Shown here piece after piece: positions 29,061 to 47,691 of a stretch of DNA of 64,000 nucleotides (its first letter is position 1; every line of letters starts with the position of its first letter). Under the pieces are notes generated by a model. The model did not search any database. It was not told where the DNA came from and saw nothing but the letters and a program-made list of their open reading frames with translations. This DNA is from Psychroserpens jangbogonensis (GTDB lineage: Bacteria; Bacteroidota; Bacteroidia; Flavobacteriales; Flavobacteriaceae), in the NCBI RefSeq assembly GCF_000797465.1, contig NZ_JSWG01000015.1, positions 310,001-374,000 of the forward strand, read 5' to 3'. The position numbers were made by a program, and so were the translations under genes.

Positions 29061-32000
29061 ATGATTAAGCTATTAATCACTATGACAATTACTAATTTAT
29101 TTCGTGCACAACTGTTTTGTTTGTGTTTCCTATTCATATCTTGTGTTCAAGCACAGGATGAAAACCATACTTCATGGGAAGCCAGTTACAATGAAGGTTT
29201 GAAAGCATTTGAAGCTAAAGATTATGAAAACGCTAAAAAAGCTTTAATAGATGCCATTACAATATCTGAACAATTCTCTGAAACTTACAAACTAGAAAAG
29301 GCAAATACAGCTTATTATTTAGGCCAAACTTTTGCTGAATTGAACTTAAATGCTCAAGCCATTTCCTTAATTGAAGAAGCCATCCTAGTATCTAAAGACA
29401 GCACGTCTAATGATTATATAGAAAAAGCGAGGTACTTAGGCAATATCTATGATACAGAATCGCAATATAAAAAAGCACTAAAGCATTTTTTAGGCGCATT
29501 AAATGCACTAAAAATAAATGATCAAAATCAATCATTAGATTATGCAAGAGGCTTAAGTCGTGTTGGAAGTATTTACAGAATTGAAGGTGATTTTGATAAA
29601 GCAGAAATGACTTTAAAAGAAAGTCTTGCCATAATTGAAGAAACGGAAGATAAAACTCATTTAGATTACGGAACAACATTATCAAGTTTAAGTATCGTTT
29701 ATAAAAAGAAAGGTTCATATAAACAAGCAGCAACAATTGCTGAAAAGGCATTAAAAACTATAAAAGATGCTGCAGGGAATAAGAGTTCAGAATATGCTTC
29801 AGCAGTAACAAATCTAACGCAAATTTATAGTGAAACAGGAGAATACGATAAGGCTATTGAAATGCAAAAAGAAGCTTTGACCTTATACGATAGCATCGGA
29901 AGAAAATCTATTAATTACGCAGGAGCTTTTTTTACATTATCTAACTTATATCATAATGTAGAAGAGTATCAGAAGGAAATACCAATTCTAAATGAAATTC
30001 AAGGCATACTTAGTGAAACGCATTCAGCTCAAGCGGCAGTTAATAATAATTTAGGGCAAGCTTATGATAGAATGGGTGATTACGAAAAAGCATTGTATTA
30101 CACGCAAATAGCAATTAGTAAGACAAAGCCAGAACATTCCAGTTACGGAACAAGGCTTCAAAATCTAGCCTTTATTTATGTCAAGTTGGGAGAAATGCAA
30201 AAAGCCCTTGAAACTTATGATTTATCTAAAACCGCAATGGAAGAAAAGTTTGGTACATCTCATCCTCTATATGGTAGATTAGTCAACAATATTGGGAAGT
30301 TGCATTACACTTTAGGAAACTATACAGATGCAAAAGACAATTTTAAAGAAGCTTTAGATAATTTCTTAAATAATTTTGATGAGAACCATCCTAATTATGG
30401 TTATTATTTAAATGATTATGCAAGAACTTTATTAGCCTTAGGGCAAAGTGAAGAAGCTGTTGACCTAATGAAGAACAATCTAAAATTAGCTGAAGATAAT
30501 TCAAGACGAGATACAGAAGCCTATTTTAATAGACAGTATAATCTAGCAAAAGCTTACAATAGTTTAGGTCGCTATGAAGAAGCTCTACCATTGCTTTTAA
30601 ATTCAACTGAAAACTTAAAACTTAAACTAGGGAATGATCATCCAGATTATGGAAGAATGCTAAAAAGTTTAAGTGATGCCTATATTGGCTTAGGTGATTA
30701 TGATAAAGCATTTCCTTTAATGGAAACTACAAATGAGGTAGTCATTAAGCAATTGGATAAGATCTTTAAATTCCGAAGTGAAACAGAGAAAAAAGCATTT
30801 CTAAAAGTAGTTACTCAAAACTTTGATGACATGCAATCTATTCCACTTTCTTCATCTGATGAAATGGATTCTTGGAATGCTTTAAACTTAAATAATCAAT
30901 TAATGCTTAAGGGTTTACTTTTGAATAATTCTAAAGATGTTTTAAGTCAGTTGCAAACATTAAACGATACTGAAATTCAGTTAAAAGTTGACAATTATAA
31001 TATTTTAAAACGTCAATTGGCAAAAGTTCTAAGTCAGCCATTATTAGATCGTGAAATAGATACAGATAGCCTAAAAACAGTTATTAATACTGAAGAAGCA
31101 CAATTGGTAAAATTATACAGTTCAAATTTTAGTAATGAGTTAACCTTATCAAAGGACTGGAAATTATCACAAGCAGAATTAAAGAAAGATGAGATTGCTA
31201 TTGAGTTTTCAAATTTTAGATACTCAAATAAAAATAAGTCAACAGATAGTATTGTTTATGTAGCATATGTTTATAAACAAAAATGGAAATATCCAAAAAT
31301 GATTTCTTTGTTTGAGCAAAGTCAATTGGAAGCTATTCTAAAAAGCACAAACCCAAACAAACTATATAAGTCTCAAGATTTATATGATTTAATTTGGAGT
31401 CCAATTCAAAAGCTTACAGATAATAACTCTACAGTCTATTTCTCACCAAGCGGATTGTTAAATCAAATTCAATTTGCTGCAATTTCTAAGACCAATGATT
31501 TTTCAATTGGTCAACTCTATAATTTAGTACAATTAAGTAGTACAGCAATTTTAGCAAGTAAACCTACAGAACCAATCTCTGATAGCACTTTATTTATTGG
31601 AGGCATTGATTATGAATATTCTGAAACAGCATCAAATACAAGTTTAAACGAAGACTATGCCTATTTAGATACAGAAACTCTAAGAAACACTAAAGCAACA
31701 CGAAGTAGAGGTGAGACTTGGACGTATTTGGAAGGAACACTTGTGGAGATTAATAATTTGCAATCAATATTTAAGACTTATAATAAGGACTACTTTGTGC
31801 TTTCAGAATCGGAAGCAACAGAGACTAATTTAAAAAAATTAAGCGGAAATTCTCCAAACGTAATTCATATTGCGACACACGGCTTTTTTTATGAAAATTT
31901 AGAATCAGATTATTCCAACCAATTTAATTTAAGTACTGAAGATCAATACCGACTGGCTGAAGACCCTTTATTGCGTTCAGGACTCATATTGGCTGGTGCT

Positions 32001-32378
32001 AATTACGCCTGGAAAAACGGAAGCAATCCAAATGAAGTGGATGATGGTATTCTTTCGGCATTAGAAATTTCTAATATGGATTTATCTAATACAGATATTG
32101 TTGTATTAAGTGCTTGTGAAACGGGCTTAGGTGACATAGATGGGAGTGAAGGTGTGTATGGTTTGCAACGTGCTTTTAAAATGGCAGGAGTCGATATTAT
32201 TGTAATGAGTTTATGGCAAGTACCAGATGCTGAAACAGCTGAGTTTATGAACCTTTTCTATGAAAATTGGATGAGAGATAGTCAGGTTAGAAAAGCGTTT
32301 ACGATTGCACAACGAACTATGCAAGAAAAGTATCAAGATGAACCACTCAAATGGGCCGCATTTGTATTATTTGAATAA
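29061..32378 (+). CDS. Secreted TPR-CHAT caspase-like protease
   Basis: 1105 aa. An N-terminal signal (hydrophobic segment about 15-32, ending VQAQ; a cysteine in ISC could be a lipobox) sends it out of the cytoplasm. About twelve tetratricopeptide repeats span 35-590 with the usual GDYDKA and LGxYxxA phrases and HPxYG spacers. The CHAT domain fills the C terminus: the catalytic dyad is His940 in ATHGFF and Cys1019 in LSACETGLGD, both intact, followed by LWQVPD. CHAT is a caspase-fold peptidase. Its neighbours are giant secreted proteins, so one of them may be the substrate. There is no T9SS tail. Confidence 0.9.
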   Translation: MIKLLITMTITNLFRAQLFCLCFLFISCVQAQDENHTSWEASYNEGLKAFEAKDYENAKKALIDAITISEQFSETYKLEKANTAYYLGQTFAELNLNAQAISLIEEAILVSKDSTSNDYIEKARYLGNIYDTESQYKKALKHFLGALNALKINDQNQSLDYARGLSRVGSIYRIEGDFDKAEMTLKESLAIIEETEDKTHLDYGTTLSSLSIVYKKKGSYKQAATIAEKALKTIKDAAGNKSSEYASAVTNLTQIYSETGEYDKAIEMQKEALTLYDSIGRKSINYAGAFFTLSNLYHNVEEYQKEIPILNEIQGILSETHSAQAAVNNNLGQAYDRMGDYEKALYYTQIAISKTKPEHSSYGTRLQNLAFIYVKLGEMQKALETYDLSKTAMEEKFGTSHPLYGRLVNNIGKLHYTLGNYTDAKDNFKEALDNFLNNFDENHPNYGYYLNDYARTLLALGQSEEAVDLMKNNLKLAEDNSRRDTEAYFNRQYNLAKAYNSLGRYEEALPLLLNSTENLKLKLGNDHPDYGRMLKSLSDAYIGLGDYDKAFPLMETTNEVVIKQLDKIFKFRSETEKKAFLKVVTQNFDDMQSIPLSSSDEMDSWNALNLNNQLMLKGLLLNNSKDVLSQLQTLNDTEIQLKVDNYNILKRQLAKVLSQPLLDREIDTDSLKTVINTEEAQLVKLYSSNFSNELTLSKDWKLSQAELKKDEIAIEFSNFRYSNKNKSTDSIVYVAYVYKQKWKYPKMISLFEQSQLEAILKSTNPNKLYKSQDLYDLIWSPIQKLTDNNSTVYFSPSGLLNQIQFAAISKTNDFSIGQLYNLVQLSSTAILASKPTEPISDSTLFIGGIDYEYSETASNTSLNEDYAYLDTETLRNTKATRSRGETWTYLEGTLVEINNLQSIFKTYNKDYFVLSESEATETNLKKLSGNSPNVIHIATHGFFYENLESDYSNQFNLSTEDQYRLAEDPLLRSGLILAGANYAWKNGSNPNEVDDGILSALEISNMDLSNTDIVVLSACETGLGDIDGSEGVYGLQRAFKMAGVDIIVMSLWQVPDAETAEFMNLFYENWMRDSQVRKAFTIAQRTMQEKYQDEPLKWAAFVLFE

Positions 32379-32439
32379 GGTCTAAAATTCTGTTTTTCAG
32401 CAGCTTAGTTGAGTTTATGAACATTAAAAAGTTCATGTT

Positions 32440-32620
32440 ATTTTGTAGGAACAGTTTATTTTAATATATTTAATACCCTTATATTTTGAATTGGAGCTTA
32501 ATAAGCAATCAATTTAAGTAATTTAATAGCACGAGTCCCATTTTACTGAATTCTTAATCATGTATGGTTTAAAACCAATCAACATGATAATACGTGCTAT
32601 AGATTATATGTCCTTGACTA
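32440..32620 (+). repeat. Cassette leader repeat, copy 1
   Basis: Non-coding leader plus the first codons of the giant gene at 32560. It matches 41467-41640: a TGTAG...GTTTATTTTAATAT block, then TAGCACGAGTCCCA, then TTACT and TTCTTAATCATGTATGG at the start codon. The middle giant gene (37558) does not carry it. Confidence 0.7.
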
Positions 32621-35600
32621 TAATTTCAAAAAATATTAAATGCTTTTTAATAGCTTCTATTCTTTTAGTAAGCTTTAATTTAAAAGCACAAATCACGTCA
32701 TTTCCATATACTGAAGATTTTGAAAGCGGATCAGCAGGTTGGTTTGCTCAAGGAAATACATCTTGGGAATTAGGAATTCCTTCTACACCCATCATAAATT
32801 CTCCTGCATCTGGATCTAATGCTTGGGTTACCAATTTAAATGGTAATTATTTAAACGTTGAGGATGGATGGTTACAAAGTCCAGTATTTGATTTTTCAGC
32901 ATTATCAATCCCTGAAATTCAATTTGCCATTTGGTGGAATTGCGAAGAACTTTACGATGGTGTCGTTCTACAGTCTTCGGTGAATTCTGGTTCAACCTGG
33001 GAAAGGGTAGGTAATTATGGTGATTTTAATTGGTATACTCATCAGTTAATTGATGCAAATCCTGGAGGTCAAGGTGAAGGTTGGAGTGGGCATGAAGAAA
33101 ATTTTACTGGTTCTGGAGGTTGGAATATAGTTGCTCAAGGATTGCCAAATCTGATTGGTCAATCTAATGTGATATTTCGTTTAGCCTTTGGGACAGATGT
33201 ATCTGTCACAGACGAAGGCATTGGTTTTGATTTAATAAAAATATATGATGGTGACTGTAATGCTGGTGATGATCAAAACCTCGCAGAATGTTATTCTAAT
33301 GCAGATATTATCAATTTGAATGATTTTTTAAGTTTTGATGCGTCTACAACTGGCTCATGGAATGTTGTTGATGGAGTGGCTGTAATTAGTGGCAATGAAG
33401 TTGACATGGTTAATGTTGACGCTGGAAATTATATTTTTGAATATAGTGTTACAAATGAAAGCTGTACAGATTATGCATATATTTTTATAACTATTGAGAA
33501 ATCTCTCGATGCTGGAGAAGATGGAGATCTTACTACGTGTTCTGCATTTACCAATGACGATTTATTTAATGCACTTAATGGATCTCCAGATTTAGGTGGT
33601 GTTTGGACGCAAGTATCCTTTGAGAATCCAATTGCATTCATGTATACACATGCTTCAACAGGATCTTGTTCAGAAAGTACCGCAATAGTTACTATTTTCT
33701 CTATTCTATCTATTGATGCTAGTGAAGGTACAGAAGCTGAGCCATGTTATATTTTTGAAACTGTAAGTTTAAATGACTATCTACCTGATACTATTCCTGT
33801 GACAGGTGGTACTTGGACGTTTAGACCATCAACTGAAGAGCCAGATCAGGATGTGCCTATTTCTGAAGGTGATGATGTTGATTTTCCAGATACTGGAGCA
33901 GGACAAGTTGCATATAGTTTTGATTATGGTGTCACAGAAGATTGTATTAATTTTACGTATGACCTTACTGTTAATGTAACTATTGACCCTTTTCCATATG
34001 CTGGAGAAGACAAAACAATTACCTTTTATTGCTATAATTATGTACCTATCAATCTGAATCAACTTGTTGAACCTAACCTTATCTCTACGCATATTACTAA
34101 TTGGGAAAGCTTAGATGGTTTAACAGTTCAAGAAACTGGTGAGGTGAATTTCCCAGATAATGGACTAGGTCAATTTTTATATACGTTTAATTATACCTTA
34201 ACAAATTCTTGTGGACAAGAAGACACTTCTGAATTAGTAATTTATTTAGATTTACTTGAACAAGCAATCTCTATTCCAGATAGTGAATTTGAACGTTATC
34301 TTATCGATGATGGTATAGATAGTAATCCAATTCCAAATGGTGAAATAGCACTTTCAGATATTTGTGGAGTGAGCTTTTTAGGAATAGACGTATACAATAT
34401 TTCTAATTTTGAGGGTATCCAATTTTTCACAGATCTTACTGATTTTTATATGGCTGATAATAACGCAGCATTTATAGATGTAATAGATTTTAGTGGAAAC
34501 CCCTTATTAGAAGATATTGAAATTTATATTTCCCCAAACTTTACAGGACTTGATATTAATGAGAATTTAGCTTTACAGAACTTAAGAATTTATGATATAA
34601 GCAATGCTCTGATTACAGTTGACCTTTCTAATAATTATAATTTAAAGTTTCTGAATCTTGAGAACACAGGGTTAAATAGCATTGATGTATCAAACAATTT
34701 ATTACTAACAGATGTGTTTGTTTTATATAATCCTATTAACGAAATTGATGTATCAGGTTTAGTAAACCTTAGAACTCTTCATACGTCTAACACTCAAATC
34801 GAGTTTTTAGACTTGTCTAACAATACTCAACTAAACACTGTTTTTGCTGTTAACGGAGTACTAACTTCAGTAAATGTTCAAAATGGGTTTAATGAAAATT
34901 TAGATTTACTCCGTTTAACTAATAACCCAAACCTAAATTGTATTTTGGTTGATGATGTCGCTAATGCTGAAACCGAACCAGGTTGGACAAAAGACGCAAC
35001 AGCAACATATGCTGAATCTTCTATTAGTATTGATATTGAAGCGCAAAATGAATCCTCTAGTTTTTATGTGTCTTCGGATTTCCCTGTAAATTTAGATTTA
35101 GATGCTTTTAATAATTGGTTAAACTCAAATGGTGGTGCAGTGGCTTCATCTGGTTGTGGCAATGTCACTTGGTCGTATTCATATGATGTCAGTTACAGTG
35201 ATAGTGAAAATACTGTTACATATATAACCACATTTGTAGCAAACGATGGACTTGAATCTGTTGTAACAATTGGGACGTTTACTTTTGAAAATGTTTTAGT
35301 TACTGCTGGTAGCGATTTTATTTTTCAATCTGATGCTGGAATTAATGGTGGAACTCGTTGTGGAAATGACGATTTTAGCCTTGGAATAATAGATGGTTTT
35401 TACATTTTTTATGATGGTACTGATGCTACTTATGAGTTTGTGCAGACCGCTGGACCTCCAGGAACAGCGTTTACAGCTTCAATTGTAGATTTTCCCGATA
35501 CAGGAGCTGGACAGTTTCTATATTCTTTTGATTTTAATAGAGAGTTAGATGTGAGTTTCCCAGGGATAGAATTACAATTATTTGATCAAGCTATAGTAAC

Positions 35601-36546
35601 TTTTTGGGTGGTTGTACCATTTGATGTTGGAGAAGATGGAACTTTAGAAGTTTGTGAAGGTCAAGATGTTACACTTGATGATTTGTATAATGCTTTAGAA
35701 GGCACACCAGATTTAGAAGGAAGTAATTTCGATATGGAAGATCTATGGACTCCGTCAGTATATCAAGGTCCAAGAGAATATACTTTTGATTTTTCACAAG
35801 TAGCACCTGATTGTAATTTTGGTTCTTCTATAGTTACTGTAAGTGAAACGCCTTGTGCTAGTACAGAATTGAATCTAAAGGTCTTTTTAGAAGGTGCGTA
35901 TGATACAAATACTGGACTTATGAGAGATGATATGAGAAGTTCAGGTATTTTGCCAACAACTAGTCCTTATGTTGATGCTAAAAGCTGTGATATTTCAGTT
36001 TTTAATGTAACAGGAAGTAGCGCTATTGTGGACTGGATTTGGCTTGAATTAAGAGATATCACTGATCAAACATTAGTAATCGAATCTAGATCTGCCTTCT
36101 TAAGAGCAGATGGAACAGTCGTTGATGTTGATGGTGTTTCTCCTTTATTTATTGATGTTCCAGAGAACGACTATTACCTTATGTTAAGTCATAGAAATCA
36201 TTTAGGTGTGCTTACTCTTGATTCATATACTTTCGACGGAACGACATTGAATATAGATTTAACGACTTCTAATCTTTCAGTACAAGGTGGGAATAATGCC
36301 ATTGCTAGCTTTAGTGATGGTACATTCGGACTTTATGCTGGAGACTTTAATGGCGACGGACAAATTCAGAATACAGATAGAAATGGAGTCACGCCGTTAC
36401 GAGGAATTAGTGGCTACAATAACGCAGATATTAATTTAAATGGACAAGTGCAAAATAGCGATATCAATGGAATCCTTACACCCAATATTGGAAAAGGAGA
36501 ACAGTTTATGAGTCGAAACCTTTTTGCACCACGTCGTCAAAACTAA
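32560..36546 (+). CDS. Giant secreted multidomain protein 1 (MAM-like, Ig-like, LRR-like, dockerin-like end)
   Basis: 1328 aa. A long N-terminal extension ends in a signal peptide (about residues 27-45, SFNLKAQ). Then a MAM/jelly-roll domain (about 46-225: FPYTEDFESG, WLQSPVFDF, GFDLIKIYD), several Ig-like modules with AGEDG and DLFNALNGSPDLGG phrases and the VDFPDTGAG motif, an LRR-like block (about 575-805, LDLSNNTQL), more modules, and a 225-residue end module from about 1104. That module has two Asp/Asn loops, DFNGDGQIQNTDRN and DINLNGQVQNSDIN, that look like dockerin calcium sites, and ends NLFAPRRQN. No ordinary T9SS tail. Probably a surface or extracellular adhesive protein. Confidence 0.82.
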   Translation: MYGLKPINMIIRAIDYMSLTIISKNIKCFLIASILLVSFNLKAQITSFPYTEDFESGSAGWFAQGNTSWELGIPSTPIINSPASGSNAWVTNLNGNYLNVEDGWLQSPVFDFSALSIPEIQFAIWWNCEELYDGVVLQSSVNSGSTWERVGNYGDFNWYTHQLIDANPGGQGEGWSGHEENFTGSGGWNIVAQGLPNLIGQSNVIFRLAFGTDVSVTDEGIGFDLIKIYDGDCNAGDDQNLAECYSNADIINLNDFLSFDASTTGSWNVVDGVAVISGNEVDMVNVDAGNYIFEYSVTNESCTDYAYIFITIEKSLDAGEDGDLTTCSAFTNDDLFNALNGSPDLGGVWTQVSFENPIAFMYTHASTGSCSESTAIVTIFSILSIDASEGTEAEPCYIFETVSLNDYLPDTIPVTGGTWTFRPSTEEPDQDVPISEGDDVDFPDTGAGQVAYSFDYGVTEDCINFTYDLTVNVTIDPFPYAGEDKTITFYCYNYVPINLNQLVEPNLISTHITNWESLDGLTVQETGEVNFPDNGLGQFLYTFNYTLTNSCGQEDTSELVIYLDLLEQAISIPDSEFERYLIDDGIDSNPIPNGEIALSDICGVSFLGIDVYNISNFEGIQFFTDLTDFYMADNNAAFIDVIDFSGNPLLEDIEIYISPNFTGLDINENLALQNLRIYDISNALITVDLSNNYNLKFLNLENTGLNSIDVSNNLLLTDVFVLYNPINEIDVSGLVNLRTLHTSNTQIEFLDLSNNTQLNTVFAVNGVLTSVNVQNGFNENLDLLRLTNNPNLNCILVDDVANAETEPGWTKDATATYAESSISIDIEAQNESSSFYVSSDFPVNLDLDAFNNWLNSNGGAVASSGCGNVTWSYSYDVSYSDSENTVTYITTFVANDGLESVVTIGTFTFENVLVTAGSDFIFQSDAGINGGTRCGNDDFSLGIIDGFYIFYDGTDATYEFVQTAGPPGTAFTASIVDFPDTGAGQFLYSFDFNRELDVSFPGIELQLFDQAIVTFWVVVPFDVGEDGTLEVCEGQDVTLDDLYNALEGTPDLEGSNFDMEDLWTPSVYQGPREYTFDFSQVAPDCNFGSSIVTVSETPCASTELNLKVFLEGAYDTNTGLMRDDMRSSGILPTTSPYVDAKSCDISVFNVTGSSAIVDWIWLELRDITDQTLVIESRSAFLRADGTVVDVDGVSPLFIDVPENDYYLMLSHRNHLGVLTLDSYTFDGTTLNIDLTTSNLSVQGGNNAIASFSDGTFGLYAGDFNGDGQIQNTDRNGVTPLRGISGYNNADINLNGQVQNSDINGILTPNIGKGEQFMSRNLFAPRRQN

Positions 36547-37473: not shown

Positions 37474-37557
37474 TTCTATTTATATGGTTTTCTATATATA
37501 GAATTAATAATACATTTGATTAAATGCATAATCAAGCTAAATAAATAATTAATTAAT

Positions 37558-40500
37558 ATGAAAAGGTCAGCTGTCGATTATATATCTTTTAACCTATCAT
37601 CTAAAAATCTTAGATGGTTACTTGTAGTTTGTATACTGTTTTTGAGCTATAGTTCAAAAGCTCAAATCACCTCATTTCCATATATAGAAGACTTCGAGGC
37701 AGGTCCTGCAGGATGGACTAGTCAAGGAACAAATAACTTATGGGAGCTTGGTGAGCCTCAAGGTCTGATTATCAATTCATCCGCATCTGGGACAAATTCT
37801 TGGGTAACAAACTTAACTGGAAATTACGATATTCTAGAAGTAGGTCTCTTGCAAAGTCCTTCATTTGATTTAACTAGTTTGACCAACCCTATGATTTCGT
37901 TAAGTGTTTGGTGGGATTCAGAATATAATAGGGATGGAGCCATATTGGAATATTCTACAGATAATCAAGTAACATGGCAAAGGGTTGGTCAACAAGGTAG
38001 TGGTTTTAATTGGTACAATTCTAATAGTATTTGGAGTTTTCCGATCGGAGAAGCCGAAGGTTGGTCTGGAACAGTAAGTAGTAGTAGTGTTATGGAAAAT
38101 AATAATACAGGATCAGGTGGTTGGATTACTGCTGGACACCCTTTAAATAATTTGATTGGAGATTTAAGCAATATTTTTTTTAGAATAAGATTTAAATCCA
38201 ATATATATAATGTAAATGAGGATGAATACGAAGGGTTTGGCATTGATAATATAACAATTCGGGAAATACCATGTCAAGCATTAGGATTAATTAATCCGGA
38301 AGCTCAGGATGAAACATACTTTTATGATGACTCATTTAATTTTGAATATGAAGAAGCTTTAGATACATGGATTTCCTTGAATGGTAATGCTGAATCAATT
38401 GATTGTAATCCATCAGAAATCACTTGGTCTTACGATTACACAGTATCATCTGATAATGGAGATTTGATTTATGATTTTACATTTACTGCAACTCATGATT
38501 TTGGAATTGCTGAGAGTACCAGTGCAACTTTTACAGTTGATGGTTTAGGTCATTTTACCGATGAATTGTATGGTACTGGAGAAACTATATGTGATGATAT
38601 ATTTGATCTGAATACAGTGATTATAAATATAGAATCAGATGCTGATTTAACAGATACTGATATTATGAATTTTAACTTCTCAAGAGTTCAAAATTTCGAA
38701 TCTAATGAAGGTCCATCAGGTGCAGTCTTTTTGGGTACTAATGTTGATTTTCCAGATACAGGAGCAGGTTCTTACTCCTATCTTTTCAAAGTAGAAGTTG
38801 AAAAAGAATTTTTTAGATATGCTCCTGAAACACAATCAACTCAATTTTTTGCGATAAATGATGAAGCCCTTATAACTCTAAATGACAAAACCGTGGCTTT
38901 TGAGGCGACTGCTGTGAGCCATATTTCGGTTTGCGAAAACACTCTAAGTATCCAAGATCTTACTGATTTATTAGTGATATCTCCAAACCCTTACGATCCT
39001 GAAACAACTCCACAGAATCCTATTGATTTAAATAATTTCTGGACGCCTTCTACTTACACAGGACCAGGTGCCTATGTTTTTAATCCCACAGCCGCATTTC
39101 CCGCTTGTCCTTCTAATGCAGTTTCGATTAATGTGTCTGAGTATGACCCAAATGAAATGCTTGTAATTCCTGATGATTTATTTGAAGATTATTTAATTGG
39201 TGAAGGAATTGATTCTAATCCTATACCTGATAATCAGATTTTAAGATCTGATGTTTGTGGTGTTCAAAGTTTGGATATCATAAGTTTCGATATTGAAAAC
39301 TTTGAAGGGCTTCAGTTTTTTGATGATATCACAAGTTTTTCACTAATAAACAACCAAGCACTGTCAATTAATAGTATAGATTTTGCTGGTAATCCTTTAT
39401 TGTCAAGTATTACAATAATTAGTTGTCCTCAAGTGCCATCAGTAAATATTTCTCAAAATATAGGATTAATAGATTTGAGTATAGTAACTAGAGGTAGTGT
39501 CTTTAATTCAATAGATATAAGTAATAATATTAATTTAATCACTTTGTCACTTGCAGATAATGAGATTACTAGTGTTGATTTATCTCAGAATCCTAATATA
39601 GATTATTTGAGTATAGCAATAAACCCAATACTTGAAATTGATGTATCAAATTTGACACAATTAACAAGTTTTAATTCATATGAGTCTCAATTGGAAGAAT
39701 TAGATTTATCTAATAATACACTTTTGGAGACTGTAAATAGTGATGATGGAGCTTTGAAATGGGTGAATTTAAATAACGAAAACAATATACTTCTTACAAG
39801 TGTTGAACTAAATGGAAATCCAGATTTAGGTTGTGTTTTAGTTGATGATGTTGTTTATTCAGAGTCTCAATTAAATTGGATCAAAGATAATACAGCTACT
39901 TATGTATCCAACTCTTCAAGTCTAACAGTTATTCAAGAGCCTCAGCCATTAATGGTTGTGTACAATCCTAATGGAAATGATTCAGAAATAGATACTTGGT
40001 TAAACAACAATGGAGGTGCTCAGGTTTCAAGTTGTGGTGATGTCATTTGGACCTATGAATTATATGATTATGAAACTAATTATTTTGACTTTGGCGACTC
40101 ATTAATATGTAATATGATTTTTACTGCAATAGATATTTTCGGAAATCAAGAATCATTCCCAGTGATTTTGGAATTTGAAAATTTCGCTGTAGCTGGTGAA
40201 TCGAATCAAGGAGATGGTGTTATTTGCGGTAAAAACTATAACATGAATGGCATTAATGGTATTGATTTTGAATCAAGTACTTATGATAATTCAACCGTTA
40301 TTCTTTCTGGTCCAGGAACTATTAGTAGTTTTAGTGTTGATTTTCCAGATACTGGTGCTGGTAGTTTCTTTTATGTCTATATATTCTCTGTGCGTACAAA
40401 TATAAGTATTGGATCTATAGATACTGAAGTGCACGATGGTGCAAGTTGGTCATTACCCAACGTAGTTATTCCTTTTGATCCAGGTGAGGATAAACAAATT

Positions 40501-41397
40501 GATATTTGTGAAGGTGATGTGCTAACACTTGAAGATTTATACAATACTTTAGATATTATTGATGGAACAGAAGACCCATTGTTTATTCAAAATGATTACT
40601 GGACACCAAGTTCATATCAAGGTCCTGGAATTTATACTTTTGACGCTGGAGATTTCTTGCCAGATTGCGGTGGTATACCTTCAACTGTTACAGTAATTGA
40701 AACTAATTGTGATACTTCATTGAGTCTAAAGGTCTTTTTAGAAGGCGCGTATGATACTAACACTGGGCTTATGAGAGATGATATGAGAGACTCAGGGGTT
40801 TTGCCAACGACTAGTCCTTATGTTGATGCTATAAGTTGTGATGTTTCAGTTTTTAATGTGACTGGAAGTAATGCTATTATAGACTGGATTTGGTTGGAAA
40901 TAAGAGATAGTAATGATCAAACACTTGTAATTGAATCTAGATCTGCACTTTTATCAGCAGATGGAACTATTGTAGATGTTGATGGAATTTCTCCTTTATT
41001 TATTGATGTTCTAGAAGACGACTACTACCTTATGCTAAGTCATCGAAATCATTTAGGAGTGCTTACTCTTGATTCTTATACTTTCGACGGAACTACCTTG
41101 AATATCGATTTAACGACTTCTAATCTTTCAGTACAAGGCGGAAATAATGCCATTGCAAGTTTTAGTGATGGTACTTATGGACTTTACGCTGGAGACTTTA
41201 ATGGAGATGGTCAAATTCAGAATTCAGATAGGAACGGAGTCATTCCGTTAAGAGGAATAAGTGGCTACAATAACGCAGATATAAATTTAAACGGACAAGT
41301 TCAAAATAGCGATATCAATGGAATCCTTACACCTAATATTGGAAAAGGAGAACAGTTTATGAGTCGAAACTTATTTGCACCACGTCGTCAAAATTGA
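37558..41397 (+). CDS. Giant secreted multidomain protein 2
   Basis: 1279 aa, same plan as giant protein 1: signal peptide ending SSKAQ at about residue 36, MAM-like domain (FPYIEDFEAG, GLLQSPSFDL, GFGIDNITI) to about 235, Ig-like modules with VDFPDTGAG at about 400 and 925, an LRR-like block at about 545-760 (VDLSQNPNIDYL, LDLSNNTLLETV), then the end module from about 1055 with DFNGDGQIQNSDRN and DINLNGQVQNSDIN and the same NLFAPRRQN ending. It is the most diverged member of the set and has no small cohesin-like gene behind it; a 3' trace of one may lie near 41440-41460. Confidence 0.82.
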   Translation: MKRSAVDYISFNLSSKNLRWLLVVCILFLSYSSKAQITSFPYIEDFEAGPAGWTSQGTNNLWELGEPQGLIINSSASGTNSWVTNLTGNYDILEVGLLQSPSFDLTSLTNPMISLSVWWDSEYNRDGAILEYSTDNQVTWQRVGQQGSGFNWYNSNSIWSFPIGEAEGWSGTVSSSSVMENNNTGSGGWITAGHPLNNLIGDLSNIFFRIRFKSNIYNVNEDEYEGFGIDNITIREIPCQALGLINPEAQDETYFYDDSFNFEYEEALDTWISLNGNAESIDCNPSEITWSYDYTVSSDNGDLIYDFTFTATHDFGIAESTSATFTVDGLGHFTDELYGTGETICDDIFDLNTVIINIESDADLTDTDIMNFNFSRVQNFESNEGPSGAVFLGTNVDFPDTGAGSYSYLFKVEVEKEFFRYAPETQSTQFFAINDEALITLNDKTVAFEATAVSHISVCENTLSIQDLTDLLVISPNPYDPETTPQNPIDLNNFWTPSTYTGPGAYVFNPTAAFPACPSNAVSINVSEYDPNEMLVIPDDLFEDYLIGEGIDSNPIPDNQILRSDVCGVQSLDIISFDIENFEGLQFFDDITSFSLINNQALSINSIDFAGNPLLSSITIISCPQVPSVNISQNIGLIDLSIVTRGSVFNSIDISNNINLITLSLADNEITSVDLSQNPNIDYLSIAINPILEIDVSNLTQLTSFNSYESQLEELDLSNNTLLETVNSDDGALKWVNLNNENNILLTSVELNGNPDLGCVLVDDVVYSESQLNWIKDNTATYVSNSSSLTVIQEPQPLMVVYNPNGNDSEIDTWLNNNGGAQVSSCGDVIWTYELYDYETNYFDFGDSLICNMIFTAIDIFGNQESFPVILEFENFAVAGESNQGDGVICGKNYNMNGINGIDFESSTYDNSTVILSGPGTISSFSVDFPDTGAGSFFYVYIFSVRTNISIGSIDTEVHDGASWSLPNVVIPFDPGEDKQIDICEGDVLTLEDLYNTLDIIDGTEDPLFIQNDYWTPSSYQGPGIYTFDAGDFLPDCGGIPSTVTVIETNCDTSLSLKVFLEGAYDTNTGLMRDDMRDSGVLPTTSPYVDAISCDVSVFNVTGSNAIIDWIWLEIRDSNDQTLVIESRSALLSADGTIVDVDGISPLFIDVLEDDYYLMLSHRNHLGVLTLDSYTFDGTTLNIDLTTSNLSVQGGNNAIASFSDGTYGLYAGDFNGDGQIQNSDRNGVIPLRGISGYNNADINLNGQVQNSDINGILTPNIGKGEQFMSRNLFAPRRQN
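40719..41394 (+). repeat. Third, diverged copy of the end-module repeat
   Basis: Matches the first about 676 bp of the 1606-bp repeat (35868 and 44110) with many more substitutions, again without gaps in the coding frame. The similarity stops at the end of the giant gene. Confidence 0.85.
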
Positions 41398-41466
41398 ATT
41401 TATTTCTATCCTAGTTTAATACAGAAAACAAGATTTTTACTTTTAAAGTAAAAGAGTAATTAATTA

Positions 41467-41640
41467 TTGTAGCTGGTTTATTTTAATATCTTTGGATTCC
41501 CTATTACTAAATTGAAATTATTAATGACAATTCAATTTAGATTCTTTTTAGCACGAGTCCCAATTTACTAATTTCTTAATCATGTATGGTATAAACCAAT
41601 CGTCCATGATATTACGTGCTATCGATTATGTGTCTTTGAC
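41467..41640 (+). repeat. Cassette leader repeat with promoter, copy 2
   Basis: Counterpart of 32440-32620. A TTG at 41467-41469 and TATCTTTG at 41487-41494 (17-bp spacing) make a good Bacteroidota promoter; transcription from about 41500 would give a leader of about 80 nt that contains the shared TAGCACGAGTCCCA element. Confidence 0.65.
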
Positions 41641-44600
41641 CATAATTTCAAAAAACATTAAGAGCAGTCTTATAGTTACTATTATTCTTATGAGCTTCAA
41701 TTTAGAAGCTCAAATCACTTCTTTTCCATATACTGAAGATTTTGAAAGTGGAGCAGGTGGTTGGTCCGCTCAAGGAACTAATACATCATGGGAATTGGGA
41801 AGTCCTTCTGGAGAACTCATAGGTTTTCCTGTATCTGGATCTAATGCTTGGGTTACTAATTTAAGTGGTGATTATTCTGATAATGAAAATGGCTGGATTC
41901 AAAGTCCTATATTTGATTTTACGTCACTAGCCAGTCCAGAGATTCAATTTTTTATCTGGAGGAATTGTGAAGCGGAATATGATGGCGTAGTTTTACAATC
42001 TTCTGTGAATTCTGGTGCAACTTGGGAGAATGTTGGTTCGTTCAACGATCCAAACAATTGGTATAATTTTGAAAATATTGTTGGAACTCCTGGTGGTCAA
42101 GGTGTTGGGTGGAGTGGAAGAGAAGAAACAAACAATGGGTCTGGTGGTTGGTCATTGGTGTCTCATGGTCTTCCAAATTTGATTGGCCAATCTAATGTTG
42201 TATTTCGATTAGCTTTTGGAACTGATACATCTGTGACAGATGAAGGTATTGGTTTTGATTTAATAAGAATCTATGCTACTAGTGAATTTTGTGTTTTTCC
42301 TGACCCAAATGCAGGAGAAGATAGTACACATTTGTTCTGCCAAGAATTAGGTACAGAAGTAGATTTAGATTTCTTTTTAACTGTAAGCCCTTCAGTTTCT
42401 CGCTCCTGGACGAGTTTAGATGGTGTTCCAATAGATTTTCAGCCTTTTGTTAATTTTGAAGGAATTGGTCCAGGCGTTTATAGGTTTCTATATCAAACTA
42501 ATCCTACTTCATCATTTGTTTGTGAAGATACAGCTGTAATAACTATTGAAATAACTGATGAATTTTTATCACCCGGATTAAATGGAGAAATAACAGCTTG
42601 TCAATTCTATACTGAAGCAGATCTATTTGCTGCTCTTGAAGGTTCACCAGATCCTGGTGGCAATTGGTTTCCAGAAATAAATCAAGTAGATTTAGTAAGT
42701 GGTGTTTTTACGTATTCACATCCATCCTCACCTTGTACGGCAGAGGTTAATGTGACGATTATTCTTTTAAATGACGAAGGTGAAATCGATGATGCTGAAG
42801 AAACGTGTTATGTTTTTGAAAGTATAAACTTAAATGATTATTTAGATGTGGATGCACCATTTGGTGGTAGTTGGGTTAGTATTGGTGTTGGAGGTGATAC
42901 AACAAAAGAGGTGCCCATTTCTGAAGGTGACGATGTTGATTTTCCAGATACTGGAGCAGGTAAAACTTCATATAATTTCACCTATAGTCAAGAAGAAAAT
43001 TGTGTGAACTATTCAAGATCTCTAGGTATTGAAGTGACTATAGATCCTAACCCAGTTGCAGAGGATGATAAAAGGATTACTTACCATTGTTTTAGTTTTG
43101 ACACAGTTAATTTAAACCAATATATAGCTCGTATTTATCCTAATCATACGGTTTCTTGGGTAAGCCAAGAAGGTCTAACCATTGTACAAGGTATTGATCC
43201 AGTAACAGATGAAGAAACAAATGAAGTTGATCTTCCAAATAATGGTCAATTCTTATATACTTTTAATTATACAATTCAAAATTCTTGTGGTACTGGAGAT
43301 TCTGGAGTATTAGAAATCTTTTTAGATTTATCAAACCAAGCAATCCCTATTCCAGATCTACAATTTGAAAACTTTCTTATTGATGAAGGAATAGATCTTA
43401 ATTCAGTTCCAAATGGTGAAATTGAACGTTCACGACTTTGTGATGTGACCGCATTGGATATTTTTAATTATGATATTTCAAATTTTTCAGGATTGGAATA
43501 CTTTACCGAATTGACAAGTTTTTATATGGAGAACAATCAGGCAGGAAGTCTGATTCCAATAGATTTTTCAGGAAACACTTTACTTAAGTATGTATATGTT
43601 TATGATGCACCTAATCTTATAGGAGTCAATATCAATCAAAATCCAGCCTTACTCGCATTAGATATTAATACTTTAAGTAATTTGTTTAATTCTGTTAACA
43701 TTTCTAATAATATTAATATAGAATATCTAAACATTAGTAATTCAGGATTAACAGCCCTTGATTTAACAAATAATAAACTATTAGATAATCTAATTATTGA
43801 ATTTAATCCAATTAATGTAATCGATGTTTCAGATCTAATATATCTTAAAACCCTAGAAACAAGTAATACTCAAATTGAGAGATTAGATGTATCTAACAAT
43901 ACGCTTTTGACTTCATTTATTGCTAATGATGGACAATTAAAATCTGTAAATCTACGAAGTAGCTTTAATCAAAACCTTGAAACACTTTCTTTAATTAACA
44001 ACCCTAATCTTGACTGCATATTTGTAGATGATGTTGATGATGCTCTTGCAGCCATAGATTGGTCTATAGATCCAACAGCCTCCTATACTATTATGCCTTG
44101 TGGAGCTCCATTGAATCTAAAGGTCTTTTTAGAAGGTGCGTATGATACAAATTCTGGACTTATGAGAGATGATATGAGAAGTTCAGGTATTTTGCCAACA
44201 ACTAGTCCTTATGTTGATGCTAAAAGCTGTGATATTTCAGTTTTTAATGTAACAGGAAGTAGCGCTATTGTGGACTGGATTTGGCTTGAATTAAGAGATA
44301 TCACTGATCAAACATTAGTAATCGAATCTAGATCTGCCTTCTTAAGAGCAGATGGAACAGTCGTTGATGTTGATGGTGTTTCTCCTTTATTTATTGATGT
44401 TCCAGAGAACGACTATTACCTTATGCTAAGTCATAGAAATCATTTAGGCGTGCTTACTCTTGATTCATTTACTTTCGACGGAACGACTTTGAATATAGAT
44501 TTAACGACTTCTAATCTTTCAGTACAAGGTGGGAATAATGCCATTGCTGGCTTTAGTGATGGAGCATTCGGACTTTATGCTGGAGACTTTAATGGCGATG

Positions 44601-44788
44601 GACAAATTCAGAATACAGACAGAAATGGAGTCACGCCGTTACGAGGAATTAGTGGCTACAATAACGCAGATATTAATTTAAATGGACAAGTGCAAAATAG
44701 CGATATCAATGGAATCCTTACACCCAATATTGGAAAAGGAGAACAGTTTATGAGTCGAAACCTTTTTGCACCACGTCGTCAAAACTAA
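41582..44788 (+). CDS. Giant secreted multidomain protein 3
   Basis: 1068 aa. N terminus and leader are close to those of giant protein 1 (RAIDYVSLTIISKNI, signal ending NLEAQ at about residue 45). MAM-like domain (about 46-230), Ig-like modules with AGEDS, GEITACQFYTEADLF and VDFPDTGAGK, an LRR-like block at about 600-815 (LDLTNNKLL, LDVSNNTLLTS), then directly the 225-residue end module from about 844 with both dockerin-like loops. Compared with protein 1 it lacks the module between the LRR block and the end module. The small cohesin-like gene follows after 33 bp, exactly as in cassette 1. Confidence 0.82.
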   Translation: MYGINQSSMILRAIDYVSLTIISKNIKSSLIVTIILMSFNLEAQITSFPYTEDFESGAGGWSAQGTNTSWELGSPSGELIGFPVSGSNAWVTNLSGDYSDNENGWIQSPIFDFTSLASPEIQFFIWRNCEAEYDGVVLQSSVNSGATWENVGSFNDPNNWYNFENIVGTPGGQGVGWSGREETNNGSGGWSLVSHGLPNLIGQSNVVFRLAFGTDTSVTDEGIGFDLIRIYATSEFCVFPDPNAGEDSTHLFCQELGTEVDLDFFLTVSPSVSRSWTSLDGVPIDFQPFVNFEGIGPGVYRFLYQTNPTSSFVCEDTAVITIEITDEFLSPGLNGEITACQFYTEADLFAALEGSPDPGGNWFPEINQVDLVSGVFTYSHPSSPCTAEVNVTIILLNDEGEIDDAEETCYVFESINLNDYLDVDAPFGGSWVSIGVGGDTTKEVPISEGDDVDFPDTGAGKTSYNFTYSQEENCVNYSRSLGIEVTIDPNPVAEDDKRITYHCFSFDTVNLNQYIARIYPNHTVSWVSQEGLTIVQGIDPVTDEETNEVDLPNNGQFLYTFNYTIQNSCGTGDSGVLEIFLDLSNQAIPIPDLQFENFLIDEGIDLNSVPNGEIERSRLCDVTALDIFNYDISNFSGLEYFTELTSFYMENNQAGSLIPIDFSGNTLLKYVYVYDAPNLIGVNINQNPALLALDINTLSNLFNSVNISNNINIEYLNISNSGLTALDLTNNKLLDNLIIEFNPINVIDVSDLIYLKTLETSNTQIERLDVSNNTLLTSFIANDGQLKSVNLRSSFNQNLETLSLINNPNLDCIFVDDVDDALAAIDWSIDPTASYTIMPCGAPLNLKVFLEGAYDTNSGLMRDDMRSSGILPTTSPYVDAKSCDISVFNVTGSSAIVDWIWLELRDITDQTLVIESRSAFLRADGTVVDVDGVSPLFIDVPENDYYLMLSHRNHLGVLTLDSFTFDGTTLNIDLTTSNLSVQGGNNAIAGFSDGAFGLYAGDFNGDGQIQNTDRNGVTPLRGISGYNNADINLNGQVQNSDINGILTPNIGKGEQFMSRNLFAPRRQN

Positions 44789-45715
44789 TTTTAAAACCAA
44801 CCCAATAATAAACGAAATACTATGAAAAATAATTACTCACTACTTATGAAAAAAATGGCAAGCCTTTTTGTTATCCTTTGTGCATTTTCAATTAATGCTC
44901 AGGATATAGAATTTACATTTGAGAATCCACAAAACACAAATGAAGGCGGTTTTGATTATTATGAGGTAGATGTAATGATTGCAACTGTAAACGCATCAGG
45001 AAGTTTTAAATTGGGATCAGGACAATTGTATTTCAACTACAATACAGCAGCATTTGGTTTGAGTGTATTTGATAATTCAAACATTGAGGTTTCTCAAGAT
45101 AATGCTCAAGGATATATTGCAGGACAAAATATTGATGCAGCTGCAGCCGCAATCTATAGTAGTTTCACTACTAATGATAATACCGATTCTAGAGTGTCAT
45201 GGTCTTTTTCACAGTTTTTTAGTTCAAATACGTTTGCGGCCGACAATGTAACTTCGGTTCCAACAAAACTGTGCCATCTTAAATTTAAATACACTGATGT
45301 AAATGAAATGCCTATGGTAATGTTCGAAGATGGAGTAGTATTTGACGACCAATTTGAAACAGCATGCGGAGGAACAGCAGGAGGTCCTTTTGAAGCAGCA
45401 GATTGTGGAGCACAACCAGGAGTAGAAATATTAAATGATAGTTTTGATAGTAGTGGACATACTTTATCAAATTCTGAATTTAACTTGCAATCAGCAATAA
45501 GAATATATCCTAATCCAGTAAAAGACATCCTAACTATTGAAGGTGATTTGCAAAACGCAATATCCCTAAAGTTATATGGATTATCAGGACAACTGATCCT
45601 AGAATTAAAAGATGATTTTAATACAATAGATATGAGCCAAATAGAGACTGGTATCTACTTTGTAAAGCTTAACACAGGAAAAGACACTTCTACATTTAAA
45701 GTTATAAAAGAGTAA
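44110..45715 (+). repeat. 1606-bp direct repeat, copy 2
   Basis: Second copy of 35868-37473. The few differences are single-base changes scattered over the whole length, which points to recent duplication or ongoing gene conversion. Recombination between the copies would delete 8.2 kb including giant gene 2. Confidence 0.95.
44822..45715 (+). CDS. Small T9SS protein with cohesin-like domain, copy 2
   Basis: 297 aa, differing from the copy at 36580-37473 at only 7 residues, all of them conservative or single-charge changes. Same signal peptide, cohesin-like beta sandwich, two-cysteine segment and T9SS type A tail. As with copy 1, it directly follows a giant gene (33 bp). If the cohesin reading is right, the protein would be fixed to the cell surface by T9SS and hold the dockerin-like end of the giant protein. 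Its stop is only 6 bp from the end of the convergent FecR-like gene. Confidence 0.75.
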   Translation: MKNNYSLLMKKMASLFVILCAFSINAQDIEFTFENPQNTNEGGFDYYEVDVMIATVNASGSFKLGSGQLYFNYNTAAFGLSVFDNSNIEVSQDNAQGYIAGQNIDAAAAAIYSSFTTNDNTDSRVSWSFSQFFSSNTFAADNVTSVPTKLCHLKFKYTDVNEMPMVMFEDGVVFDDQFETACGGTAGGPFEAADCGAQPGVEILNDSFDSSGHTLSNSEFNLQSAIRIYPNPVKDILTIEGDLQNAISLKLYGLSGQLILELKDDFNTIDMSQIETGIYFVKLNTGKDTSTFKVIKE

Positions 45716-45721
45716 CTAAAA

Positions 45722-46534
45722 TTAGAAACAAAGTTTAAAGTCTTGGCAAATTGCTGTCTGTACCTCTAAACTAGTGAAACCCATATTTTTTAAGTCAGCA
45801 CTAAGTAACGATAGGTCTTTTTTGACATTTTTAAATTCATCGTTACTTAGTATATGAAATGAATAAAATGGAGTTTTATTCATATTTGGGTACTTGGTTT
45901 CAGTTATAGCCCATTCGTAGTTATTACCTTGTTTTAATAATGTACCATCAATCATAAGTGAAATTGTGTTGACTGGAGTTCCAATAGTAGTAATGGCTTT
46001 AGTCTCTTTATTTCTAATCACGAAATAATAGTCTTTTTCTTTATTTGGAATGCGATCCCATTCAAAGCGAATTTCATTATTATAAATTTTAATACTGTCA
46101 GCTGGATAACGCATCAAAATAATATCATCTCCTCTGTAGACGACACCACTTTTATCTCTTCGCAAAACATCAGTATTTGTGAATTCTTTCCATACGTATG
46201 AAAAATAGGTTTTAGCGAAAGATGAGTTGGTCGTAATAGGCTCTAATGCCAATAATTCTTTATGGTTAAAGGTGCCAGTTTGAAATAATTTAAAAACGTC
46301 ACCATTATCATTTACCATATAAATAACATCTTCTCGGTGCATTATTAATTTGGTGTTTTTATCCAACAAAGAACCTTTCTTTACAATTTTCACCGAATCA
46401 TTAACTTCTATTTTAGGCGAACCTTCATATTTGTAAACAAATAATTTGTTTTTTTCTGCAAAGCTCAATTGAAATGTTAGGAATAAAAAAACTAACAAAA
46501 CATAGCCTTTATTTACTTTAAGTAAGTTTTCCAT
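45722..46534 (-). CDS. Periplasmic FecR-like protein
   Basis: 270 aa with a signal peptide (about 1-26, ending LSFAE). Residues about 40-100 resemble a FecR-type beta domain (VKIVKKGSLLDKNTKLIMHREDVIYMVNDNGDVFKL). The C-terminal part (about 150-225) is a beta-rich segment with IRFEWDRIPNKEKDYYFVIRNK and YEWAITE, like domains used to present statements to a membrane partner. The start overlaps the CHASE2 gene end by 22 bp, so the two are translationally coupled. No function can be assigned with certainty. Confidence 0.6.
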   Translation of the reverse strand: MENLLKVNKGYVLLVFLFLTFQLSFAEKNKLFVYKYEGSPKIEVNDSVKIVKKGSLLDKNTKLIMHREDVIYMVNDNGDVFKLFQTGTFNHKELLALEPITTNSSFAKTYFSYVWKEFTNTDVLRRDKSGVVYRGDDIILMRYPADSIKIYNNEIRFEWDRIPNKEKDYYFVIRNKETKAITTIGTPVNTISLMIDGTLLKQGNNYEWAITETKYPNMNKTPFYSFHILSNDEFKNVKKDLSLLSADLKNMGFTSLEVQTAICQDFKLCF

Positions 46535-47691
46535 TTTCTTTTAGTGTTTATATAACGTGTTAAATGCTTATAATATTTAAAATAGCTTCCAGCGATGATT
46601 ACTCCAATAACAATTGGAAACGGATTAATAACAATGTCATTTTTAAAAAACCAAACGACTATAGCAAAAAGTACAACAGAAAAAACAAGTTGATAGGTCT
46701 GTTTTCTTGTACGATAACTAATCTTATACTTTTTGTTCCATTTCATGTATAAAATGGTGGATAAATACATACAAATAAATGTAATTACACACATCCAAAA
46801 GAATGATACTCTATTCATTAAATCGTTCTTAATTAACATGTTTGTTATGTTTCCATGTACAACAGATCCGAACATATCTGAATCGCTTTTACCAGCACTA
46901 GTAGGATTTAATGGTGTGAAAAATTTATCTAGGATATCATTTTTATTTCCTGTTGGAGAGCCAATGTAACCCATAATGACGATCTTGTCTTTTAAAATAG
47001 GCTTGTCTTCATTAAGAAAAAAGTCATCTAGACTTAAATAGGGGAAAGCAGTATAGTTCCCAGAATATTTTATGGTCTGAAGCTTGGTTAATCTTTCATC
47101 GTAATTATATTTTTCCCATTGCTTTTTACTGAGATATTTCTGAGCTAGTAGTGTAGCGAATGAAGAATGACTTTTTTCGTTAAATTCCTTTTTACCAATA
47201 AACTCTCTAATAACCGCAGTATTTGTTTTAAAGTTAAATTCTGCAAAACCAGATCGATGTCTTGTTTTAAAGAAAGGATCACTAAAAATTAAACTATCAT
47301 TTGAAGTCTCAAAGGTTGTAACTACTTTTTTGTTCAGAAGTAATTTAGCCAAAAATGTATCGGTTTTTGTTTTTTCTGGACGATTTTCTAAAATGATATC
47401 AAAGCCAACTGCTTTAGGATCTTCTTTTAATATAGAATTTAAAAGATTTGCAATAACTTCTCTATCGTGGTTTTCTATATTGACTAATATGATGTCACTA
47501 TTAACCTTATCTGTATTGTGAAACTTTTCAGAATAGAATATATCTAAAAAGCTAAAATCTGAAAAAGCCTTATGCAGTGGGTTGAAAAAACGAATATTGA
47601 TAAATGCAATTGAAAGTATTAATAAGAGAATACTTGAAAGAATTGTAGACAAAAATGCATCTCTAATTAATAGCTTAGTCTTTTTTTTCAT
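46513..47691 (-). CDS. CHASE2-domain membrane sensor protein
   Basis: 392 aa. One transmembrane helix at about 12-33, a periplasmic CHASE2 domain (about 55-275: DIILVNIENHDREVI, DPKAVGFDIILE, KDKIVIMGYIGSPTG, FGSVVHGNITNML), then transmembrane helices at about 285-375 and a short basic tail. CHASE2 is an extracytoplasmic sensing domain, normally joined to a kinase, cyclase or other output domain; here there is none, so the signal must pass to a separate partner. It overlaps the FecR-like gene by 22 bp. I recall CHASE2 and CHAT domains occurring in the same proteins in cyanobacteria, which would fit the CHAT protein here. Confidence 0.85.
   Translation of the reverse strand: MKKKTKLLIRDAFLSTILSSILLLILSIAFINIRFFNPLHKAFSDFSFLDIFYSEKFHNTDKVNSDIILVNIENHDREVIANLLNSILKEDPKAVGFDIILENRPEKTKTDTFLAKLLLNKKVVTTFETSNDSLIFSDPFFKTRHRSGFAEFNFKTNTAVIREFIGKKEFNEKSHSSFATLLAQKYLSKKQWEKYNYDERLTKLQTIKYSGNYTAFPYLSLDDFFLNEDKPILKDKIVIMGYIGSPTGNKNDILDKFFTPLNPTSAGKSDSDMFGSVVHGNITNMLIKNDLMNRVSFFWMCVITFICMYLSTILYMKWNKKYKISYRTRKQTYQLVFSVVLFAIVVWFFKNDIVINPFPIVIGVIIAGSYFKYYKHLTRYINTKRKWKTYLK

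Follow-up and report, generated by a model that had tools for sequence, protein, structure and literature searches.

The window analysed here is a stretch of 64,000 nucleotides from Psychroserpens jangbogonensis (contig NZ_JSWG01000015.1, positions 310,001 to 374,000, forward strand), and the subject of this study is a block of eight genes at positions 29061-47691 of the window, above all the candidate cohesin-dockerin pair encoded in it. On the plus strand, the genes lie in the order CHAT protein, giant 1, small protein 1, giant 2, giant 3, and small protein 2, and they are followed on the minus strand by the genes of a FecR-like exported protein and a CHASE2 membrane protein (Table 1). All eight genes had been listed in an earlier note on this DNA, and all eight were recovered as open frames. 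The genes of the two small proteins, which that note had described as anchored by the type IX secretion system (T9SS), each start 33 bp behind a giant gene (giants 1 and 3), and a T9SS tail was matched in both products. In the whole genome, the end module of the giants occurs three times and the N-terminal domain of the small proteins twice, and every copy lies in this block.

Table 1. Features of the block. Coordinates are window positions.
Feature	Positions	Strand	Description
CHAT protein	29061..32378	+	Secreted TPR-CHAT peptidase-like protein, intact His940/Cys1019; pair-linked in a subset of genomes
Giant 1	32560..36546	+	1328 residues; signal peptide-like start followed by MAM/reelin-like (N-terminal) and LRR-like parts and the end module; T9SS tail absent
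Giant 1, end module	35878..36507	+	X-module-like part and dockerin-like unit (dockerin about 36340-36507)
Small protein 1	36580..37473	+	297 residues; signal peptide-like start, cohesin-like domain (modelled 36658-37260), T9SS type A tail 37261-37470
Giant 2	37558..41397	+	1279 residues; end module 40729-41358; giant 3 is the next gene
Giant 3	41582..44788	+	1068 residues; end module 44120-44749, 98% identical to that of giant 1
Small protein 2	44822..45715	+	Cohesin-like domain 99% identical to that of small protein 1; T9SS type A tail
FecR-like exported protein	45722..46534	-	Second gene of the CHASE2/FecR-like pair; no Pfam or NCBIfam FecR match
CHASE2 membrane protein	46513..47691	-	First gene of the pair; no output domain matched

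The last ~210 residues of the giants are common to them at 90-98% identity, and 69 end modules could be aligned from end to end. In this alignment, D156, D167, D184, and D195 (numbering of the first sequence) are invariant in the 69 members and occupy places 1 and 12 of two loops, so that the module has the two calcium-type loops with conserved Asp of a type I dockerin (PF00404). The Pfam model Dockerin_1 matched 44 of the 69 modules at E <= 0.1, with a best value of 5.1e-5. When the profile of the module was compared with the PDB, the top match was the hyaluronidase chain of 2jnk/2ozn (E 0.0019), which we take to be a dockerin module, followed by two serine-protease chains and several cellulosomal dockerins, and more weakly by calmodulins and a few acyltransferases. 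The alignment, the invariant Asp residues, and the Dockerin_1 matches thus bear out the earlier description of the giants as ending in two calcium-loop-like, dockerin-like repeats. The internal domain matches of giant 1 were all weak and below cut-off, and neither Pfam nor NCBIfam showed either type of T9SS tail on any giant at E <= 0.1.

The small proteins carry a T9SS type A C-terminal sorting domain well over the Pfam cut-off (E 5.9e-13 and 3e-13; 49.3 and 50.3 bits, respectively, against 27). For their N-terminal domain, an AlphaFold model built from 55 aligned sequences reached a predicted local distance difference test score (pLDDT) of 90.4 and a predicted template modelling score (pTM) of 0.86. 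In a Foldseek search of the PDB with this model, all 19 matches at E <= 0.001 were cohesin entries (best 5lxv, E 3.6e-6), and ranks 1-28 were cohesins throughout. A natural module-cohesin fusion (405 residues, locus L066) was modelled as well (pLDDT 91.4, pTM 0.75); its model gave 27 PDB matches at E <= 0.001, 24 of which were cohesins, the others being one pilin and two integrins. These models predict that the N-terminal domain adopts the cohesin jelly-roll fold, in agreement with the cohesin-like beta sandwich proposed earlier. Distant relatives of the domain were found in other Bacteroidia, in 12 of 396 genomes besides the window's own genome and G317; in the six of these loci that were read, 7/7 domain-bearing frames also match a T9SS tail, and no end module was found in these six short loci.

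The module and the cohesin-like domain are linked by gene order. A scan covering one genome per species returned at least 536 module relatives, and the best of these were traced to 67 named loci (Aquimarina, Tenacibaculum, Polaribacter, Winogradskyella, and others). Frames of at least 80 codons were counted, modules had to reach profile position 205 and exceed 150 positions, and identical ones were merged (114 to 107). This left 107 distinct modules of the window type, those of the window among them. The next gene encodes a cohesin-like domain in 40 cases, another module in 27, and another T9SS tail in three; in the rest, it is an unrelated same-strand gene (23) or an opposite-strand gene (five), or the module lies at a contig end (two) or is itself fused to the cohesin (seven). 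Seen from the other side, all 58 distinct cohesin-domain frames of the window and the 67 loci are accounted for: 44 lie directly behind a module gene, seven are fused to a module, and seven lie directly behind another cohesin gene. Our own T9SS-tail profile matched 50 of the 52 complete cohesin-domain frames, and six frames run off their contig. Module, cohesin, and T9SS tail occur within one frame in seven distinct cases at the named loci and in one in G258; the congener G002 has a further such fusion, with the tail judged by eye. Directly behind the fusion in G258 lies a 2622-codon frame (L105:2320-10185, minus strand) that encodes four nearly equal cohesin-like domains together with a T9SS tail.

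Since the named loci had been chosen by the module, 299 genomes of the family were surveyed with each profile separately. The cohesin-like domain was found in 11 genomes, the module in 32, and a module reaching the dockerin end in nine. All nine genomes with a dockerin-end module carry the cohesin-like domain, as against two of the 290 others (Fisher p 1.2e-15), and each of the nine has at least one adjacent or fused module-cohesin pair. The 23 genomes with only other module types gave no cohesin match. Together with the 58/58 adjacency or fusion, this survey places the module and the small protein in common neighbourhoods beyond chance.

The distance matrices of 47 adjacent or fused pairs correlate between dockerin and cohesin (r 0.44), between X-part and cohesin (r 0.25), and between X-part and dockerin (r 0.44), each above all 2000 permutations. 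The partial correlation is 0.38 for dockerin and cohesin and 0.07 for X-part and cohesin. The cohesin is therefore tracked better by the dockerin part of the module than by the X-part that precedes it.

A second type of module, with an altered, insert-bearing dockerin end, was seen at loci L004-L014, L019-L024, and L028-L030. All 20 of these type-2 module genes are followed by a same-strand, T9SS-tailed frame of 266-308 codons that has no match to the cohesin profile (the gaps were measured from the start of the open frame and not from a start codon). These results suggest that the type-2 modules and their tailed neighbours form a parallel partner pair. A cohesin assignment was tried for the partner type A5, which accounts for 17 of the 20, and rejected, with an hhalign probability of 0.6 against the cohesin profile. 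A5 is not called a cohesin because it could not be aligned with this profile, had no Pfam match at E <= 0.1, and gave only PDB profile hits above E 0.1.

The CHAT domain of the first gene is recognised at E 1.1e-53 (183 bits against a cut-off of 24). His940 and Cys1019, reported as intact in the earlier note, are in place, and both motifs are also present in three relatives, so that the domain has the His-Cys dyad of a CHAT peptidase. Window-type CHAT proteins (E <= 1e-100) were found in four of the 299 genomes, namely the window's own (G000), G090, G106, and G120; more distant members may be missed in this count because two candidates per genome were scored. In three of the four genomes, the CHAT gene is an immediate upstream neighbour of the pair or of one partner: in G000 and G090 it precedes giant and cohesin genes, and in G106 a cohesin gene. 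In G120, it is convergent with a CHASE2/FecR-like pair, and no giant or cohesin match was found among the genes read around it. In addition, G098 has a different CHAT gene, with its end 4.6 kb ahead of a module gene, and a search of the 67 named loci with the CHAT domain gave a single match (E 2.3e-8), 7 kb from the module. CHAT genes in general are common (43 in 18 of 21 genomes searched). A part for CHAT in the assembly is thus supported in a subset only, by the three genomes and G098, and not by the named loci at large; it is plausible that CHAT is an exported cysteine-peptidase-like partner in a subset of clusters. Directly upstream of CHAT in G090 lies a caspase gene (C14 by Pfam; L099:1496-3472), and in G106 a gene with a start that looks similar by eye occupies the same place (L101:14277-16247).

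The CHASE2 domain of the last gene is likewise recognised (E 2.4e-19; 70.3 bits against 26.3), and no kinase, output, or other domain was matched in Pfam, as the earlier description of a CHASE2 sensor without output domain implies. Two other statements about this pair need revision. For the FecR-like protein, neither Pfam nor NCBIfam gave a FecR match at E <= 0.1, and it is not classed as FecR. The two genes, which had been called convergent, share a strand and overlap by 22 bp, and the only gene with which they converge is that of the small protein. The FecR-like gene stands beside CHASE2, on the same strand, in 10/10 genomes with CHASE2, with the order reversed in one (L117). Among the nine genomes other than the window's own, eight have no cohesin match, and the ninth, G142, has its cohesin pair 1.6 Mb from the CHASE2/FecR-like genes. 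Within flanks of up to 10 kb, the 67 named loci gave no CHASE2 and no FecR-like match at E <= 1e-4. These results do not support the proposed role of CHASE2/FecR as a monitor of the assembly; it is more likely that the pair is a separate unit, a neighbour with a role of its own. Leaving aside the window and G120, seven of the remaining eight pairs have a papain-like (C1) gene nearby and one an M48/Sel1-type gene, as judged by sequence start, with one C1 and three M48/Sel1 proteins checked by Pfam. The output-less pairs near C1 or M48/Sel1 genes (L115-L122) may constitute an unnamed peptidase-linked unit.

The block sits between two core genes, clpB and a lipoprotein-like gene, which were found in 23/23 genomes of the genus searched, the window's own included. 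The site was compared in 20 of the 22 congeners, the other two having their flanks broken over contigs. In 20/20, the two flanks are close together on one stretch and enclose the same small gene, and none of CHAT, giant, cohesin, FecR-like, or CHASE2 was matched at this site. A frame at L132 matches the small protein weakly (E 5e-6), with a T9SS-tail match and no cohesin-profile match, and at L133 and L143 only the shared small gene lies between the flanks. The interval as such (window 22648-49045) is variable in the genus, 18 of the 20 congeners having other open frames besides the shared small gene. Beside the block, the window (25924-28794) encodes a T9SS-tailed protein of repeated ELWxTDGT units, for which the congener G002 has a match at the same site.

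Taken together, these results make it highly probable that the core of the block is a cohesin-dockerin pair for surface display, with CHAT belonging to it in a subset of clusters only and the CHASE2/FecR-like pair standing apart. The proposal that the small protein anchors the adjacent giant is strongly supported by the predicted cohesin fold, the dockerin matches, the adjacency, the matched distribution, and the natural fusions. The small proteins would cross the outer membrane through the T9SS by their own C-terminal tail and would act as surface anchors. Type A substrates, according to PMC10994853, are carried off by PorV and then released or linked to surface lipopolysaccharide. The N-terminal cohesin would grip the dockerin of the tail-less, adhesin-like giants, presumably in a calcium-dependent manner through its calcium loops, and CHAT may plausibly act as a peptidase of the assembly in a subset of clusters. 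As a more tentative extension, which we regard as possible though somewhat less likely than its opposite, the sorting tail may act in trans: a giant would bind the cohesin-tail protein in the periplasm via its dockerin and be ferried through the outer membrane as its passenger. A single small adaptor could then export and anchor several giants, the fusions would represent the same complex in one chain, and the type-2 partner would be a parallel adaptor. In hitchhiker export by the twin-arginine translocation system, a partner without its own signal crosses the membrane bound to a signal-bearing one; this is an analogy for the passenger step only, and it differs in concerning the inner membrane and another machine. 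No case of T9SS passenger export was found in the titles and abstract openings of the papers retrieved on T9SS co-secretion.

Several observations weigh against the cohesin-dockerin pair. On the side of sequence and fold, the first dockerin of the window scores 13.7 bits, below the curated cut-off of 22.9, and the TM-scores of the N-domain model to cohesins are moderate (0.26-0.61 by target, ranks 1-28). None of the 55 members of the domain matches a cohesin model in Pfam at E <= 0.1, so that the domain is classed as cohesin-like by fold and not as a member of PF00963, which we take to be the Pfam cohesin accession; a sequence search of the PDB with the N-domain gave nothing beyond two Pgp2 chains at E 0.2-0.3. 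The model of the L066 fusion is silent on the docking of its two parts because it comes with no inter-domain error map. On the side of gene order, the next gene is neither cohesin nor module in 31 of the 107 distinct modules, giant 2 has no small gene of its own, and the adjacency at the named loci is partly by design because these were sampled by module. In the survey, only 10-11 candidates per genome were scored, so that module-rich genomes may hide members, and four genomes had themselves supplied sequences to the profiles used, namely G082 and G323 (both profiles), G317 (module profile), and that of the window. Cohesin-bearing genomes without a module match are G106, where the cohesin gene directly follows CHAT, and G329, where it lies at a contig end; a contig piece of G323 (L110) has two cohesin frames and no module, and modules without an adjoining cohesin occur in G142 (L104) and G317 (L107 and L113).

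It is quite unlikely, in our judgement, that the end module is instead an unrecognised C-terminal export signal of the T9SS and its neighbour a non-binding T9SS substrate of the same operon. This explanation fits the secreted appearance of giants that have no known tail, as well as the terminal position of the module, behind which no residues follow in 82 of 100 distinct non-fused cases (2/100 at contig ends), and its conserved GxGxQF end. In all eight distinct fusions at the named loci and in G258, however, the module is internal and a T9SS tail (own profile) comes after it; moreover, the module ends in a dockerin-like unit, and the partner domain is a cohesin by predicted fold. The idea of a defence or toxin-like island made up of the giants, the small proteins, and CHAT, with the cohesin likeness reflecting a generic beta sandwich, is very improbable. 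CHAT proteases do occur in defence systems, and the block is variable between congeners, but in a PADLOC scan of five proteins, CHAT hit just a TPR model and the other four hit none, on which result this candidate was rejected, and the fold specifically matches cohesins down to rank 28.

A cohesin-dockerin pair could also be part of one larger machine, as the earlier note had proposed, in which CHAT processes the assembly and CHASE2/FecR senses it; we consider this unlikely. All the parts lie in one block that is absent from the site in the 20 congeners, window-type CHAT adjoins giant or cohesin genes in three of four genomes and CHASE2/FecR in the fourth, and the associations of CHAT with cohesin and with CHASE2 reach Fisher p 1.5e-4 and 0.006, counted by genome after the data had been seen. 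Conversely, the 67 named loci do without CHAT, CHASE2, and FecR-like genes at E <= 1e-4, bar the one CHAT match; CHASE2/FecR pairs elsewhere are mostly near papain-like or M48/Sel1 genes; the two pairs of G142 are far apart; and G120 combines CHAT, FecR-like, and CHASE2 genes with no giants among the genes read.

If the cohesin-dockerin reading is correct, the pair would account for the retention of large exported proteins without a tail at the flavobacterial surface, would allow the action of a T9SS tail in trans to be tested, and would be a source of new, possibly orthogonal, binding pairs. The earlier statement that no such system has been described was too strong in view of two papers. In one, a BiofilmReg operon places a CHASE2 histidine kinase beside a LysM-FecR protein (PMC5192318); the arrangement resembles the present one in that a CHASE2 membrane protein is encoded beside a FecR-type exported protein and differs in that no kinase or output domain was matched on CHASE2 here and no FecR in its neighbour. 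In the other, a scaffoldin with tandem cohesins and a C-terminal domain for surface attachment was proposed for Candidatus Stygibacter of the Cloacimonadota (PMC8542988). No paper combining a CHAT domain with CHASE2 was found in the literature searched, and no cohesin or dockerin with the T9SS or in flavobacteria in that part of it which was accessible, with few subscription journals covered. Cellulosomal cohesins, dockerins, or scaffoldins are stated to be lacking from Bacteroidetes genomes (PMC5831590) and from two cellulolytic species of the phylum (PMC6247017).

Among known systems, the pair is comparable to the type II pairs with X-module of clostridial anchoring scaffoldins, in which a two-loop dockerin-like end on the large partner is likewise preceded by a further module and the anchor has the cohesin fold; a four-cohesin protein also occurs here, in one relative. 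It differs from cellulosomal pairs in that the anchor bears a T9SS tail and a cohesin sequence unrecognised by Pfam, and in that the partners are adhesin-like, with no glycosidase or carbohydrate-binding module matched in the window giants. The block is therefore not a cellulosome, a polycohesin scaffoldin with dockerin-bearing polysaccharide enzymes: each small protein has one cohesin, and no enzyme domain in the window giants exceeds its cut-off. With the Stygibacter scaffoldin (PMC8542988), the pair has in common that the cohesins are linked to a C-terminal domain that would attach them directly to the cell surface and that other exported proteins carry the dockerins. The Stygibacter complex carries glycoside hydrolase and peptidase enzymes and has recognised cohesin and dockerin domains, whereas the system described here has small one-cohesin anchors beside adhesin-like giants and natural dockerin-cohesin-tail fusions.

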